A stretch of DNA of 45,369 nt from an uncultured Pelagibacteraceae bacterium. GTDB taxonomy: Bacteria > Pseudomonadota > Alphaproteobacteria > Pelagibacterales > Pelagibacteraceae. A program made the translations under genes and the position numbers. Position 1 is the first letter of the stretch, and each line of letters opens with the position of its first letter. Below the pieces are notes generated by a model, which was not told the DNA's origin, did not search any database, and saw only the letters and a list, made by a program, of their open reading frames with translations. The stretch spans positions 1-45,369 of the forward strand of contig CACHQZ010000005.1 in the NCBI GenBank assembly GCA_902582165.1, given 5' to 3'. Below, in pieces: positions 7,660-12,670 of the stretch.

Positions 7660-8563
7660 CCCTCTAGTTAGTATAATTATGAATTGTTATAATGGTGAAA
7701 AATATCTTTCACGAGCATTAGAAAGCATAAAGAGACAAAAATACGAAAATTTTGAGTTAGTTTTTTTTGATAATCACTCTAATGATAAAAGTGAGGAAAT
7801 ATTCAAAAAATTCAATGATAGTAGGTTTAAATATTTCAAATCAGATAAACATAAAATTCTTTATGAAGCAAGAAACGATGCTTTAAAAAAATGTAACGGG
7901 AAATATATTTCATTTCTTGATACAGATGATTATTGGTTTGAAAATAAATTATTTTTACAAGTACCAATACTTGAAAAAAACCATAATATTGGATTAGTTT
8001 ACGGTAACTTTATAAAATATAATGTAAATAAATTTCTCTTTAAAAAAAAAAGTCTTAAAAGTAATCTTTTTCAATCAGGAAAAATAACTAAATCTTTAAT
8101 CAATAATTATTATATCGGTTTATTGACTGTAATAATAAGAAAAAGTTTTATGAGTGGTGATTTAGAATATTTTAATCCAAAATATAATTTGTTGTCAGAT
8201 TTTGATTATATTATCAGATTTTCCCAAAAACATAGTTTTGATTTTGTTAAGCAGAATATAGCTGTTTATACTCAACACGAAAATCAATTACAGTCTAAGT
8301 ATATATCTGTCCAAGCTGCTCAATTTGATCATTGGTATAAAATGAACATTTTAAATAAAAAATTATCTGAAAAAGAATATAATTTTAAAAATATTAAAGA
8401 AAAAAATAATTTTCTTAATTTTGTAGCCCAAATAAAAGAAAAAGATAAACTTAAACTATTTAAGGAAATTATTTTTTATTCTAATAACTTTTATAAAATA
8501 AAAATTATTTTATTAATTTTGCTTCCAGAAAAAATCTGTAAAAAAATATTTAGCTTAACCTAA
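7652..8563 (+). CDS. GT2-family glycosyltransferase
   Basis: A 303-residue inverting glycosyltransferase with a GT-A fold. The N-terminal strand PLVSIIMNCYNGEKYL is typical of family GT2. Asp40 in the FFDNHSND segment binds the nucleotide, and the DTDD metal-binding motif is at residues 90-93, followed by YWF. The C-terminal part lacks transmembrane helices apart from a hydrophobic stretch near the end (ILLILLPE). It overlaps the SDR gene by 8 nt and ends 2 nt before a second GT2 gene. It probably adds one sugar to a lipid-linked glycan in the cytoplasm. Donor and acceptor are unknown. Confidence 0.82.
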   Translation: MLNPLVSIIMNCYNGEKYLSRALESIKRQKYENFELVFFDNHSNDKSEEIFKKFNDSRFKYFKSDKHKILYEARNDALKKCNGKYISFLDTDDYWFENKLFLQVPILEKNHNIGLVYGNFIKYNVNKFLFKKKSLKSNLFQSGKITKSLINNYYIGLLTVIIRKSFMSGDLEYFNPKYNLLSDFDYIIRFSQKHSFDFVKQNIAVYTQHENQLQSKYISVQAAQFDHWYKMNILNKKLSEKEYNFKNIKEKNNFLNFVAQIKEKDKLKLFKEIIFYSNNFYKIKIILLILLPEKICKKIFSLT

Positions 8564-8565
8564 TT

Positions 8566-9330
8566 ATGAAATCAAATAAATATTCTGTCGATGTCATAAT
8601 ACCAAACTATAATAAAGGTAAATACCTTAAGCAATCAATATACACTGTATTAAATCAATCATTTAAAAAATGGAAATTATATATTATTGATGATAACTCT
8701 AGTGATCAATCAAATCAAATTTTAAAACAATTTAGAAATAAAAAAAAAATAAAAATTATAAATTTGAAAAAAAAAAGAGGACCCGGTAATGCAAGAAATT
8801 TGGGAATCTCAATCTCAAAATCAAAATACATAGCTTTTTTAGACTCCGATGATCTTTGGAGTAGAAATAAACTTAAAGATCAACTTTATTTTATGAATAA
8901 ATATTCCTATAAGATCAGTTACAGCGATTATGTGCCCTTCAAAGATAATGAAGAAAAAAAAAACAAAAGAAAAATTAAAGTTCAACCTTATTTTAGTTAT
9001 AAAAAATTTATTCATGATACATCATTAAGTATGAGCTCACTAATTATTGAAAGATCATTGACAAAAAAAATAAAATTTAGAAATTTGAATATCTGTGAGG
9101 ATTATTTATATAAGTGTGAAATATTAAAAAAAATTGGCAAAGCTTTTAAATGTAAAAATACCATGATGTACTATAGAATTTCCGATAACTCAATGCAAAG
9201 TAATAAAATCAAAAATATTGTTTGGGTATGGAAAATTAATAAAAATTATAATAAACTTAACTTTTTTCAAAATTTAAAATCTATATTCTTTATTTCTATT
9301 AATTCTTTAAAAAAATATGGATTTAAATAA
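8566..9330 (+). CDS. GT2-family glycosyltransferase
   Basis: A 254-residue GT2 enzyme and the last gene of the glycan block. VDVIIPNYNKGKYLK near the N-terminus and IIDDNSSDQS at about 40-49 mark the nucleotide site. GPGNARNLG at 72-80 and DSDD at 93-96 complete the GT-A core. It is shorter than many GT2 enzymes but has all the core motifs. It starts 2 nt after the previous GT2, and its stop lies only 9 nt before the tRNA-Val gene, with no hairpin terminator between. Transcription from the glycan operon could therefore continue into the tRNA. Confidence 0.82.
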   Translation: MKSNKYSVDVIIPNYNKGKYLKQSIYTVLNQSFKKWKLYIIDDNSSDQSNQILKQFRNKKKIKIINLKKKRGPGNARNLGISISKSKYIAFLDSDDLWSRNKLKDQLYFMNKYSYKISYSDYVPFKDNEEKKNKRKIKVQPYFSYKKFIHDTSLSMSSLIIERSLTKKIKFRNLNICEDYLYKCEILKKIGKAFKCKNTMMYYRISDNSMQSNKIKNIVWVWKINKNYNKLNFFQNLKSIFFISINSLKKYGFK

Positions 9331-9339
9331 TAAAATTTT

Positions 9340-9414
9340 GGGCGTGTAGTTCAGTGGTAGAACGCTACGTTGACATCGTAGAGGTCATAAGTTCAATTCT
9401 TATCACGCCCACCA
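9340..9414 (+). tRNA. tRNA-Val (GAC)
   Basis: A complete cloverleaf: 7-bp acceptor (GGGCGTG with CACGCCC), anticodon stem CTACG/CGTAG around loop TTGACAT (anticodon GAC, valine), and T arm ATAAG/CTTAT around TTCAATT. The CCA end is encoded at 9412-9414. It stands 9 nt after the last glycosyltransferase and 65 nt before the 5S gene. Confidence 0.95.
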
Positions 9415-9445
9415 CAAGACCCATTTAAGCTAGTTTTTTCAGCTA

Positions 9446-9474
9446 TTTACAATTTAAATTTAAAATATTATAAA
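9446..9474 (+). promoter_or_regulatory. Predicted sigma70 promoter of the 5S rRNA gene
   Basis: TTTACA at 9446-9451 and TATAAA at 9469-9474 are separated by exactly 17 nt. Each differs from the consensus hexamer by one base. The predicted start of transcription, about 6 nt after the -10 box, falls on the first base of the 5S gene (9480). This would let 5S be transcribed without the upstream rRNA genes. Confidence 0.7.
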
Positions 9475-9479
9475 CCCTT

Positions 9480-9595
9480 GCCTGGTAATTATTGCGAAGG
9501 GGCTACACCCGATCCCATTCCGAACTCGGAAGTTAAGTCCTTCAGCGCCGATGGTACTTTGTCTTAAGATATGGAAGAGTAGGACGTTGCCAGGC
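9480..9595 (+). rRNA. rrf: 5S ribosomal RNA
   Basis: About 116 nt. The terminal helix pairs GCCTGG at the 5' end with CCAGGC at the 3' end. The internal blocks CCCATTCCGAACTCGGAAGT and GCCGATGGTA are the strongly conserved 5S loops. No 16S or 23S gene is adjacent: the upstream side is tRNA-Val and glycan genes, as in SAR11 genomes where the hypervariable region splits 23S from 5S. Only 9 nt separate its end from the L36 start codon, with no separate terminator. Exact ends are good to within a few bases. Confidence 0.95.
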
Positions 9596-9604
9596 TTTTA
9601 AATT

Positions 9605-9730
9605 ATGAAAGTAGCAAGTTCTTTAAAATCGTTGAAAAAAAGAGATCTTAACTCTAAGCTAGTTAAACGTAGAGGAAAGCTATATATAATTAATAAAAAA
9701 AACCCAAAGTTTAAAGCTCGTCAAGGTTAA
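9605..9730 (+). CDS. rpmJ: 50S ribosomal protein L36, cysteine-free form
   Basis: A 41-residue basic protein beginning [14 protein letters not shown] and ending NPKFKARQG, which matches the long, zinc-free (C-minus) type of L36. None of the Cys/His zinc ligands of the classical form is present; the strand that carries them reads [11 protein letters not shown] here. It binds 23S rRNA in the large subunit. The ATG at 9605 lies 9 nt after the 5S gene and has no Shine-Dalgarno sequence. A stop at 9728 precedes the next small gene by 2 nt. Confidence 0.92.
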
Positions 9731-9732
9731 AG

Positions 9733-9843
9733 ATGAGTGATAACGATTTCAAAAAAACTTACAACGGTTTTACAAAGTTTGTACTTTGGGGAACAATTGC
9801 GGTAATTGCAATATTAGTAATATTAGCAATTACACTGCTCTAG
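9733..9843 (+). CDS. Short aa3-type cytochrome c oxidase subunit IV-like membrane protein
   Basis: A 36-residue protein with a polar N-terminus (MSDNDFKKTYNGF) and one transmembrane helix from about residue 17 to the end. The YNGFTKFVLWGTIAVIAIL pattern resembles bacterial aa3-type cytochrome oxidase subunit IV, a small protein often encoded just before pntA in Alphaproteobacteria. It starts 2 nt after rpmJ and ends 18 nt before pntAA. It probably sits in the inner membrane with the terminal oxidase. The family call rests on a short motif and gene order, so an unrelated small membrane protein is possible. Confidence 0.68.
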   Translation: MSDNDFKKTYNGFTKFVLWGTIAVIAILVILAITLL

Positions 9844-9861
9844 AATTTTAAAATTAAAACT

Positions 9862-10956
9862 ATGGTAGTCGGTTCAATTAAAGAAAATACTGCATTAGAA
9901 AAAAGAGTTTCTCTAACTCCTGAGTCAGCAAAAAATATCATTGGACTTGGATTAAAAGTGTGTGTTGAAAAAGGTTATGCACGTCACCTTGGAATTGAAG
10001 ACAAAGAATATAACGATATTGGAGTTGAGATAAAAGCATCATCAAAAGAAGTATTAAATTCAAGTGACTTAATTACAAGAGTAAATTGTCCCTCGGAAGA
10101 TGAAGTTGGAATGTTAAAAGATAATACAATTTTAATTGGAATGCTCAATCCATCAAATAATAAAAATCAAATCGATAAAATTATTAATAAAAAGATTAAG
10201 CCTTTTTCTTTAGAATTATTGCCTAGAATTACAAGAGCTCAATCAATGGACGTTTTATCTTCCCAATCTAATTTGGCTGGATATAGAGCAGTTGTTGATT
10301 GTGTTGCAGAATTTGAAAAAGCTGTACCTATGATGATGACAGCGGCTGGAACCGTTCCAGCAGCTAAAGTTTTGGTTATTGGAGCAGGTGTAGCAGGTTT
10401 ACAAGCTATCGCTACCGCTAAAAGATTAGGCGCGATTGTTTCAGCAACAGACGTTAGAGCAGCATCTAAAGAGCAAGTTGAAAGCTTAGGTGGTAAATTT
10501 TTAACAGTTGAACAAAACGAAGATATGGAAACTGCTGGTGGATACGCAAAAGAAACATCAGATGAGTATAAAAAAAAGCAAGCAGAAATGATGAAAGAAG
10601 CACTTAAAAAAAATGATATAGTTATATGTACAGCATTAATTCCTGGAAAACCTGCTCCAAGAATACTAACAGAGGATTTAGTTAAACTTTTGAAGCCTGG
10701 GTCAATCGTTTATGATTTGGCAGCAGAACAAGGAGGAAACTCTGCATTTTCAGAAGCAGGTAAAATTAATTCAGTAGATGGAATAAAAATAATAGGAGTT
10801 AAAAGTTTAATGAATAGCTTACCACTTACTGCTTCAAGCTTATATGCTAAAAACTTATTTAGTTTTATTCGTAACTTGTATAGTAAAGAGAAGAAAGATT
10901 TTAACATTAATTTAGAGGACGAAATAATAGAAAAATCATTAATCAAAAGAGTTTAA
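9862..10956 (+). CDS. pntAA: NAD(P) transhydrogenase subunit alpha, part 1 (soluble domain I)
   Basis: The NAD(H)-binding domain I of proton-translocating transhydrogenase, which uses the proton gradient to drive NADPH formation from NADH. The RAQSMDVLSSQ loop at about 125-135 and the Rossmann GAGVAG at 174-179 are hallmark motifs. A mobile-loop region containing EMMKEALK follows near 240. At 364 aa it is the split type, where the membrane part of alpha is a separate gene. Only 2 nt separate it from pntAB. No Shine-Dalgarno sequence precedes its ATG. Confidence 0.95.
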   Translation: MVVGSIKENTALEKRVSLTPESAKNIIGLGLKVCVEKGYARHLGIEDKEYNDIGVEIKASSKEVLNSSDLITRVNCPSEDEVGMLKDNTILIGMLNPSNNKNQIDKIINKKIKPFSLELLPRITRAQSMDVLSSQSNLAGYRAVVDCVAEFEKAVPMMMTAAGTVPAAKVLVIGAGVAGLQAIATAKRLGAIVSATDVRAASKEQVESLGGKFLTVEQNEDMETAGGYAKETSDEYKKKQAEMMKEALKKNDIVICTALIPGKPAPRILTEDLVKLLKPGSIVYDLAAEQGGNSAFSEAGKINSVDGIKIIGVKSLMNSLPLTASSLYAKNLFSFIRNLYSKEKKDFNINLEDEIIEKSLIKRV

Positions 10957-10958
10957 TT

Positions 10959-11270
10959 ATGGAAATAGACCCGTTTATATTTAGATTAAGCATTTTTATT
11001 TTATCGATTTTTATTGGTTACTATGTTGTATGGAGCGTAACTCCATCTCTTCATACTCCATTGATGTCAGTCACTAACGCTATTTCATCAGTTATTATTG
11101 TGGGTGCTATTATTGCAGCTTTAGCAGGAACTTCCGAAAGTATTTTTAATACGTCGAGTATTTTTGGATTTATAGCTATCATTTTAGCAGCAATAAATAT
11201 TTTTGGGGGCTTTTTAGTGACTCAAAGAATGCTTCAAATGTACAAAAAAAAAAAAGATAAAAAGAAATGA
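10959..11270 (+). CDS. pntAB: NAD(P) transhydrogenase subunit alpha, part 2 (membrane domain)
   Basis: A 103-residue inner-membrane protein with three hydrophobic segments, around residues 10-28, 42-60 and 66-86, the usual makeup of PntAB. The C-terminal tail is a lysine run encoded by 12 consecutive A residues (11244-11255). It forms part of the proton channel with PntB. The stop (TGA) overlaps the pntB ATG by 4 nt, which suggests translational coupling. Confidence 0.93.
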   Translation: MEIDPFIFRLSIFILSIFIGYYVVWSVTPSLHTPLMSVTNAISSVIIVGAIIAALAGTSESIFNTSSIFGFIAIILAAINIFGGFLVTQRMLQMYKKKKDKKK

Positions 11271-12670
11271 TCTCAGCTAACCTAGCAGCAATTTTTTATT
11301 TAGTATCTGGAATATTATTTATTCTTGCGCTTAGAGGATTATCGTCTCCAGATACATCTAGACAAGGAAACTACTTCGGAATTGCTGGAATGATAATTGC
11401 AATCGTAGTGACATTCCTATCAATTGGAAATTTTTCAACATCTCTAGTATACGTAGTTATATTTCTAGTAATCGGTGGAGCAATAGGCGCTTTTATAGCT
11501 TTTAAAATTCCGATGACTGCAATGCCAGAATTAGTGGCTGGTTTTCACAGTTTAGTAGGTTTAGCAGCAGTTTTTGTAGCGATCGCAGCCTTTTTAAATC
11601 CCGCAGCTTTTAATCTAGGAATTGTCGGTGACATAAAACTAGCTAGTCTTATTGAAATGTCTATTGGAGCAGCAGTAGGAGCGATAACTTTTTCAGGGTC
11701 TATAATAGCTTTTTTAAAGTTAAGAGGAATAATGTCTGGCGCTCCTATTACTTTTAATGGTCAGCACATTTTAAATTTGATACTTGGAATAGGTATATTT
11801 GTTTTAATTTTTTATCTATGTAAAACTCAATCTACAAATATTTTTTGGACTGTAATTATAATCTCATTTCTTGTCGGAGTTTTATTAATTATCCCTATAG
11901 GGGGTGCAGATATGCCTGTAGTAATTTCAATGCTTAATTCCTATTCTGGGTGGGCTGCAGCCGGCATAGGTTTTACATTAGAAAATACTGCTTTGATTAT
12001 AACAGGTGCGCTTGTCGGATCCTCAGGTGCAATACTTTCATATATAATGTGTAAAGCCATGAACAGATCTTTTGTAAGTGTAATTCTAGGTGGTTTTGGA
12101 GCAGACAATTCAGCTGATGATAAAAAAGAAAAGAAAGATCAAAAGCCAGTTAAAAGTGGTAACGCAGAAGATGCAGCTTTTTTAATGAAAAATGCCTCAT
12201 CTGTAATTATAGTTCCAGGGTACGGTATGGCCGTTGCTCAAGCTCAACACGCTCTTCGAGAGATGGTAGATAAATTAAAAAAAAATGACATTAAAGTTAC
12301 TTACGCTATTCACCCTGTAGCTGGAAGAATGCCTGGTCATATGAATGTTTTATTAGCTGAAGCAAATGTTCCTTATGATGAAGTTTTTGAATTAGAAGAT
12401 ATAAATAACGATTTTGCTAATTCTGATGTTGCATTTGTTATTGGAGCTAATGATGTAACAAATCCCGTAGCGAAAACAGACCCAAAAAGTCCAATATTTG
12501 GAATGCCAGTTCTTGATGTTGAAAAATGTAAATCTGTTTTATTTGTTAAAAGAAGTTTGTCACCAGGGTATGCGGGTATAGATAATGAACTCTTTTATAA
12601 GGATAATACGCTAATGTTGTTCGCAGATGCAAAAAAGATGACAGAAGACATAGTAAAAAATTTAGACTAA
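11267..12670 (+). CDS. pntB: NAD(P) transhydrogenase subunit beta
   Basis: A 467-residue protein with an N-terminal half of about eight or nine membrane helices (proton-conducting domain II) and a C-terminal NADP(H)-binding domain III. VPGYGMAVAQAQ at about 315-326 is the NADPH-binding loop, and HPVAGRMPGHMNV and GANDVTNPVA are further domain III signatures. The short charged linker (DDKKEKKDQK) before domain III is a hinge. It overlaps pntAB at the start, and the next ATG uses the last base of its stop codon. It completes the three-gene transhydrogenase. Confidence 0.95.
   Translation: MISANLAAIFYLVSGILFILALRGLSSPDTSRQGNYFGIAGMIIAIVVTFLSIGNFSTSLVYVVIFLVIGGAIGAFIAFKIPMTAMPELVAGFHSLVGLAAVFVAIAAFLNPAAFNLGIVGDIKLASLIEMSIGAAVGAITFSGSIIAFLKLRGIMSGAPITFNGQHILNLILGIGIFVLIFYLCKTQSTNIFWTVIIISFLVGVLLIIPIGGADMPVVISMLNSYSGWAAAGIGFTLENTALIITGALVGSSGAILSYIMCKAMNRSFVSVILGGFGADNSADDKKEKKDQKPVKSGNAEDAAFLMKNASSVIIVPGYGMAVAQAQHALREMVDKLKKNDIKVTYAIHPVAGRMPGHMNVLLAEANVPYDEVFELEDINNDFANSDVAFVIGANDVTNPVAKTDPKSPIFGMPVLDVEKCKSVLFVKRSLSPGYAGIDNELFYKDNTLMLFADAKKMTEDIVKNLD

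Follow-up and report, generated by a model that had tools for sequence, protein, structure and literature searches.

The best explanation of the comparative data taken as a whole, and one that we consider probable, is that the 5S rRNA gene of SAR11 bacteria is an independent transcription unit with its own promoter. A sigma-70-type promoter sequence (TTTACW-N17-TATAAR in the genus studied here, with related hexamers and spacers of 16–17 nt in its relatives) is fixed 5–6 nt before helix I of the 5S rRNA, and RNA polymerase would start on the first G of this helix, giving a 5' end that would thus need either no trimming or the removal of a single base. Transcription would run on into the ribosomal protein gene rpmJ, or in some relatives into a sugar epimerase gene and then rpmJ, and a cut, perhaps by RNase E, would free the 3' end of the 5S and leave about 10 nt of leader on the rpmJ mRNA. 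The promoter would have arisen, or been taken over, once the 5S gene lay at the rpmJ end of a surface-glycan island, apart from the 16S and 23S genes.

The window, a stretch of 45,369 nt from an uncultured Pelagibacteraceae bacterium (assembly GCA_902582165.1, contig CACHQZ010000005.1, positions 1–45,369), carries all features of the locus on its plus strand. As the initial annotation had proposed, it contains a stand-alone 5S gene with tRNA-Val and glycan genes upstream: a family-2 glycosyltransferase gene (8566–9330; Pfam PF00535, E=2.5e-33), the final gene of the HVR2 surface-glycan island ahead of the tRNA, is followed by tRNA-Val(gac) (9340–9414) and then by the 5S rRNA gene (9480–9597). 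The Rfam model RF00001 matched positions 9481–9595 with 92.4 bits, and G9480 was taken as the first base of helix I because it can pair with C9595; the two gene ends, 9480 and 9597, are those that we presume by analogy with the E. coli 5S. The 5' end of the mature SAR11 5S used here is thus a predicted position, drawn from the Rfam model and from E. coli, in which the 5S starts one base further out. This locus holds the sole 5S copy detected in the genome (954 kb, 84.8% complete), and no 23S rRNA gene was detected in the same 84.8%-complete assembly.

Ahead of the 5S gene lie the −35 hexamer TTTACA (9446–9451), a 17-nt spacer (9452–9468) and the −10 hexamer TATAAA (9469–9474), each hexamer matching the sigma-70 consensus (TTGACA and TATAAT) at five of six positions. 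Five nucleotides (9475–9479) separate TATAAA from the helix-I G at 9480, which follows a T and is the putative transcription start; these coordinates agree with the claim that TTTACA-N17-TATAAA ends 5 nt before the gene. Sigma-70 transcripts usually start at a purine some 6–7 bp downstream of the −10 hexamer, and a distance of five nucleotides, though within the usual range, is among the shortest. On the other side, rpmJ (bL36; 9605–9730; PF00444), detected in one copy in the genome, begins 9 nt beyond C9595, where the Rfam match to the 5S ends. In agreement with the claim, nothing terminator-like was found in positions 8500–10600, and so neither between tRNA-Val and 5S nor between 5S and rpmJ. 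Beyond rpmJ, a 36-aa ORF resembling subunit IV of aa3-type cytochrome oxidase (COX4_pro_2; 9733–9843; PF07835, E=3.8e-10) precedes the transhydrogenase genes pntAA (9862–10956), pntAB (10959–11270) and pntB (11267–12670), which are covered by PF01262, PF12769 and PF02233. Gaps between ORFs do not exceed 18 nt from rpmJ through pntB, and pntAA-pntAB-pntB (9862–12670) may form the distal portion of the 5S transcript. The available text of PMC2704228 places a structured 'pntA element' RNA at the rpmJ-pntA position in Ca. P. ubique; at the corresponding position of the window (9733–9843), no Rfam match passed the gathering threshold.

The sequence evidence that this putative promoter is more than a chance match is its positional conservation in relatives, not the window alone. 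A local scan returned 10 promoter-like sites in the window against 10.7 in shuffled sequences, and TTTACA-N17-TATAAA was missing from its list because the last base of its −10 hexamer is not a T; a generic promoter score of 9.39 for the site was little different from the mean of 8.7 that shuffled genus spacers gave. Neither the scan nor the scorer singles the site out, and both were dropped as evidence for it. TTTACW-N17-TATAAR occurred four times on the forward strand and zero times on the reverse strand of the 954-kb genome, against five and three for the motif read backwards, and is thus rare without being enriched. The generic scorer counts against the site in relatives as well, its best site within 150 nt upstream ending at the 5S position in only 56/105 loci of the genus, 19/58 of a related genus (g3) and 3/7 of the rest, with about 3% in shuffled sequences. 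At the 28 tRNA genes of the genome the best-scoring site ended 5–8 nt upstream in no case, which suggests, with the generic scorer being a weak test, that stable RNA genes of this genome do not share the 5S spacing as a rule. An AGCT-N9-AGCT inverted repeat between tRNA-Val and the −35 hexamer was considered as a terminator or conserved element and rejected, with repeats of at least 4 bp and two GC pairs present in 10% of the 106 loci compared with 5% of shuffles.

Conservation of both hexamers and of their spacing in relatives had been set beforehand as the test on which the proposed promoter could fall, and both were found to be conserved. The genus sample consisted of 106 5S loci (104 of 151 genomes, plus two more; duplicates L112 and L127, of L046 and L070, were omitted); 47 of the 151 genomes gave no 5S match, and among the 12 genomes of at least 90% completeness 11 had a 5S. 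Fewer than 500 nt were available upstream in five loci (L104, 73 nt; L061, 311 nt; L097, 188 nt; L021, 44 nt; L098, 175 nt). The exact motif TTTACW-N17-TATAAR was present in 98/106 loci, at −35 relative to the first base of the Rfam model in 84 and at −36 in 14, and nowhere else within up to 500 nt upstream; shuffled sequences contained it at the −35 place 0.0 times on average. The eight remaining loci deviate, for example with TATACA, TATATA or TATAAC as the −10 or TAGACA as the −35. Under a relaxed rule all 106 loci passed, compared with 10% of shuffles, each with a spacer of 17 nt and with the −35 hexamer at its fixed offset from the 5S. The −10 hexamer, TATAAR in most loci, lies 5 nt from the helix-I G in 90 and 6 nt in 16, and the G at the putative start is invariant (106/106). 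The comparison thus shows a constrained, promoter-like element held at a fixed distance from the 5S gene. Similarity of this kind might also come, with no selection on a promoter, from common descent or from recombination that exchanged DNA around the rRNA flank, and PMC2217521, in the text available, had proposed that HVR2 recombines at its rRNA flanks. We regard such an origin as extremely improbable, as the hexamers were kept while neighbouring columns and most of the spacer lost similarity: in the column profile the A-rich 3' part of the spacer (about 9461–9467 in the window) is moderately conserved, and the rest of it, like the columns beyond −45, is mostly low in information. The same profile is shared by 60 representatives of less than 65% identity, of which 43 have the exact motif at −35.

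For the other genera of the family, 65 of the 104 available loci were examined, namely the best-scoring automatically found loci together with a hand-made list picked before the sequences were read. The relaxed rule was passed by 56/65 of these (50/58 in g3 and 6/7 in g2, g4, g5 and g6) and failed by nine, compared with 11–13% of shuffles passing, and spacers in the passing loci measured 16 or 17 nt, inside the 16–18 nt expected of sigma-70 promoters. Ten g3 loci (L126, L129, L162, L163, L180, L181, L184–L186, L188) have a helix I of GCCGG/CCGGC instead of GCCTGG/CCAGGC; the change is compensated and shifts the first G one base inward. Their −10 hexamers stay in place, and the first base of the helix is still a G after a pyrimidine.

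These distances also bear on where transcription would begin. The promoter could be real and yet start transcription a few bases to either side of the mature end, or it could serve mainly the rpmJ-pnt genes with the 5S supplied partly by other routes, so that normal 5' trimming would persist. Bacterial RNA polymerase can vary its start site over several bases, which counts in favour of such an offset, as does the closeness of rpmJ, whose start 8–19 nt after the 5S leaves no room there for a promoter of its own. We nonetheless judge it unlikely, given a −10 to helix-I distance of 5–6 nt in 106/106 genus loci and of 5–7 nt in the 56 others that pass, a distance kept even in lineages whose altered helix I displaces the first G by one base, and given the invariant G at the start place in the genus.

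A scan of public genomes, one per species, for the promoter pattern followed by a 5S returned at least 118 stretches, which are a sample. Among the 118 matches listed, 115 are filed as Pelagibacteraceae, Pelagibacterales or Pelagibacter, and the core octamer of the 5S follows the pattern in 111, the exact octamer being missing from L342 and from six matches with Pelagibacteraceae titles. L342, from Niastella populi, lies away from any 5S and was discarded as a chance match. SCGC AAA280-P20, an alphaproteobacterial single cell (L301), is among the matches listed and has a 5S motif after the promoter pattern. On contig NZIV01000077.1 (L302, positions 500–1300), from a MAG filed under Candidatus Neomarinimicrobiota, a glycosyltransferase-like end, tRNA-Val, 5S, rpmJ and a pntA-like start could be read by eye; the contig is probably SAR11-like and misbinned.

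Among 24 genomes of the Pelagibacteraceae, 17 have 16S and 5S on one contig, and in 15 of these the 5S lies 27–83 kb downstream on the same strand; the distance in G163 is about 84 kb if the record is circular. A full-length 23S adjoins the 16S, 24–57 kb from the 5S, in six of the nine family genomes searched for 23S. G167 is unlike the other single-contig genomes of the family, with its 16S at 171497–172971 on the minus strand of contig C1 and its 5S at 608354–608468 on the plus strand, about 437 kb apart; this 5S (L115) keeps TTTACA-N16-TATAAC and rpmJ, and an assembly error is possible.

Immediately upstream of the 5S, the nearest call in the genus is a same-strand tRNA-Val in 59/106 loci, a same-strand ORF in 32 and an opposite-strand ORF in 12, with no call in three; strands were assigned from mechanically called ORFs (100 aa or longer), of which some lie more than 300 nt away. 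The promoter site is kept in all 106, including the 47 without a detected tRNA-Val (two of which have less than 150 nt upstream) and the 12 with an opposite-strand neighbour. With a same-strand upstream neighbour in most loci, read-through from upstream could add to the 5S supply. Carried further, the 5S might be excised altogether from a longer tRNA-Val or glycan-operon transcript, with the conserved AU-rich sequence acting as a nuclease or processing signal; the frequent same-strand neighbours, and the absence of a terminator-like site between tRNA-Val and 5S in the window, speak for this. The sequence, however, has two blocks, spaced as in a promoter, on either side of a middle that has largely diverged, and it is kept without a detected tRNA-Val, beside opposite-strand neighbours and in G167 with its distant 16S on the other strand, while the 5S flanks have no stem joining them. 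Excision from an upstream transcript is on these grounds a distinctly unlikely origin of the 5S, and we retain a promoter at the 5S itself as the preferred reading.

The missing stem stands out against a sister family of the same order (f2), in which the operon is intact: 23S follows 16S and 5S follows 23S by 90–97 nt in 8/8 genomes. The 5S flanks of f2 form a duplex with a mean of −13.1 kcal/mol, compared with −3.4 kcal/mol when shuffled, and of −9.1 kcal/mol or stronger in 16/16 loci; 13 of the 15 stem positions have standard pairs in at least 15 of the 16 sequences, and four show changes on both sides. None of the 16 f2 loci has a promoter by the relaxed rule, compared with 9% of shuffles. 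Flank pairing in the Pelagibacteraceae (105, 58 and 7 loci) averages −1.6, −1.7 and −1.9 kcal/mol against −1.9, −2.4 and −2.2 kcal/mol for shuffles, a pattern that shows no precursor stem and indicates that the processing stem has been lost. The intact operon therefore goes with a stem and no promoter sequence, and the split operon with a promoter sequence and no stem.

Gene order in the two families suggests how the split came about. In f2, rpmJ lies 54–78 kb downstream of the rrn operon on the same strand in 7/7 single-contig genomes (G154, G173, G177, G179, G181, G184, G187); it is on another contig in six others and was not found in two of the 14 genomes searched. A tRNA-Val(gac) directly precedes the rpmJ region in 12/12, and in the Pelagibacteraceae the 5S adjoins rpmJ or lies about 1 kb before it in 15/17 single-contig genomes. 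Both families therefore share a common frame of rrn, glycan island, tRNA-Val and rpmJ, and they differ in the end at which the 5S is found. This order, with the f2 island genes viewed in part as the starts of sugar-nucleotide genes after the 5S, suggests that the 5S crossed an existing island, leaving the rrn end for the rpmJ end, a course that we favour over one in which the island was inserted into the operon. At the spot occupied by the 5S in Pelagibacteraceae, between tRNA-Val(gac) and rpmJ, f2 loci L367–L378 have a conserved basic ORF of 42–45 aa (MKKPNKIREARLNKKRSKKNN...); it begins 53–57 nt after the tRNA in 11/12, and the AT-rich stretch before it looks promoter-like by eye in some.

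Downstream of the 5S, the link to rpmJ seen in the window proved general in the genus, with rpmJ 8–19 nt after the 5S in 105/106 loci; the exception, L103, is a partial 5S at a contig end, where no downstream gene can be read. Gaps of this size leave no space for a terminator or for a separate rpmJ promoter. In the other genera a same-strand CDS follows at 6–69 nt in 63/65 loci (rpmJ in 33, an NAD-dependent epimerase type in 29 and another gene in one), so that coupling to a downstream CDS is near-universal at 168/171 family loci. Run-on into the downstream gene is proposed because nearly all loci lack room for a terminator after the 5S. The 29 loci in which an NAD-dependent sugar epimerase gene starts shortly after the 5S (e.g. 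L107, L111, L116) probably have a glycan gene on the 5S transcript, and in genomes with the intervening epimerase rpmJ follows about 0.9–1 kb further on (e.g. G155, G157, G159, G163, G165, G271). In L169 and L178 an opposite-strand, glycosyltransferase-like frame lies within about 10 nt of the 5S and no same-strand CDS is nearby; run-on into an mRNA is therefore not universal, and another way of ending or cutting the 5S transcript must operate at these two loci. RNase E/G was found in all 20 genomes checked, which rules out that its loss accompanied the split operon, and rpmJ was single-copy in the same number of genomes checked (20/20). The neighbours seen here are in line with those given for metagenomes in the available text of PMC2704228, where mostly 5S or rmlB directly precedes the pntA motif, and where rpmJ precedes pntA in 'Ca. 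P. ubique'.

The 16S gene of the genus carries a visibly different promoter sequence. Upstream of the 16S, 9/9 loci show TTGMYW-N16-TAWAAC, a pattern written after the sequences had been viewed, and the leader is about 210 nt long. The sigma-70-type hexamers are common to both units, but the 5S differs in its TTTACW-N17-TATAAR form, its low-GC discriminator and its predicted lack of a leader: GC content over 8 nt of the discriminator is 62–88% in the nine 16S promoters and averages 38% in the 106 5S loci. Stringent control in E. coli is associated with a GC-rich discriminator. The 5S site lacks the GC-rich discriminator of stringently controlled rRNA operon promoters, and the 5S may have escaped control of the stringent type.

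A stand-alone 5S in SAR11 is already known. The split operon was published in 2007 (PMC2217521, 'split ribosomal RNA operons'), and PMC3815206 gives the operon as split in other SAR11 and intact in HIMB59; for genomospecies Ib.4 a relocated island is reported, the 5S being found elsewhere (PMC11898729). These accounts and PMC4053759 concern the same locus as ours, the operon being split around the HVR2/O-chain cluster with the sole 5S on one side of the island and 16S-23S on the other. As available, they treat gene order and variability, without mention of a promoter for the 5S, of the loss of a processing stem or of a unit joining 5S and rpmJ, and the word 'promoter' occurs zero times in the main text of PMC11898729. 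Our literature search, which barely covered subscription journals and left out bioRxiv preprints, returned no description of these three features in SAR11; as far as we found, it is new that a promoter sequence is conserved at the predicted mature 5' end, that the stem is lost and that the 5S is coupled to rpmJ. The 5S genes of Leptospira and of TACK archaea (PMC3037291, PMC8339473) likewise lie apart from 16S-23S and are expected to be transcribed alone, but they belong to other lineages, the archaea with different promoter machinery, and the available text of those papers does not state the transcript starts; a paper on Leptospira start sites, as available, gives the 5S without a position (PMC5243855). 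A looser parallel, and an analogy only, is offered by the eukaryotic 5S genes, which are likewise separate genes whose transcripts, made by RNA polymerase III, begin at the mature 5' end, but from an internal promoter and with unrelated machinery.

Cells are usually thought to balance 16S, 23S and 5S rRNA through one common precursor. Tentatively, and with slightly less than even confidence, we propose that in SAR11 a leaderless 5S has replaced the operon-linked, precursor-processed form: such a 5S would keep its 5' triphosphate in ribosomes, the same promoter would, by way of one cut after the 5S, feed the sole L36 gene found and possibly the transhydrogenase genes, and the supply of 5S and L36 would be set by a promoter type unlike that of 16S-23S. 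SAR11, among the most abundant bacteria on Earth, would then have dropped the one-precursor linkage for its 5S, and the comparison records both a loss, that of the stem, and a gain, that of the promoter sequence. The family would thus offer a clean natural test of rRNA stoichiometry without this linkage, of the need for 5S 5' processing, and of an rRNA and a ribosomal-protein mRNA sharing one transcript, with a ready prediction for SAR11 isolates that can be tested in culture.
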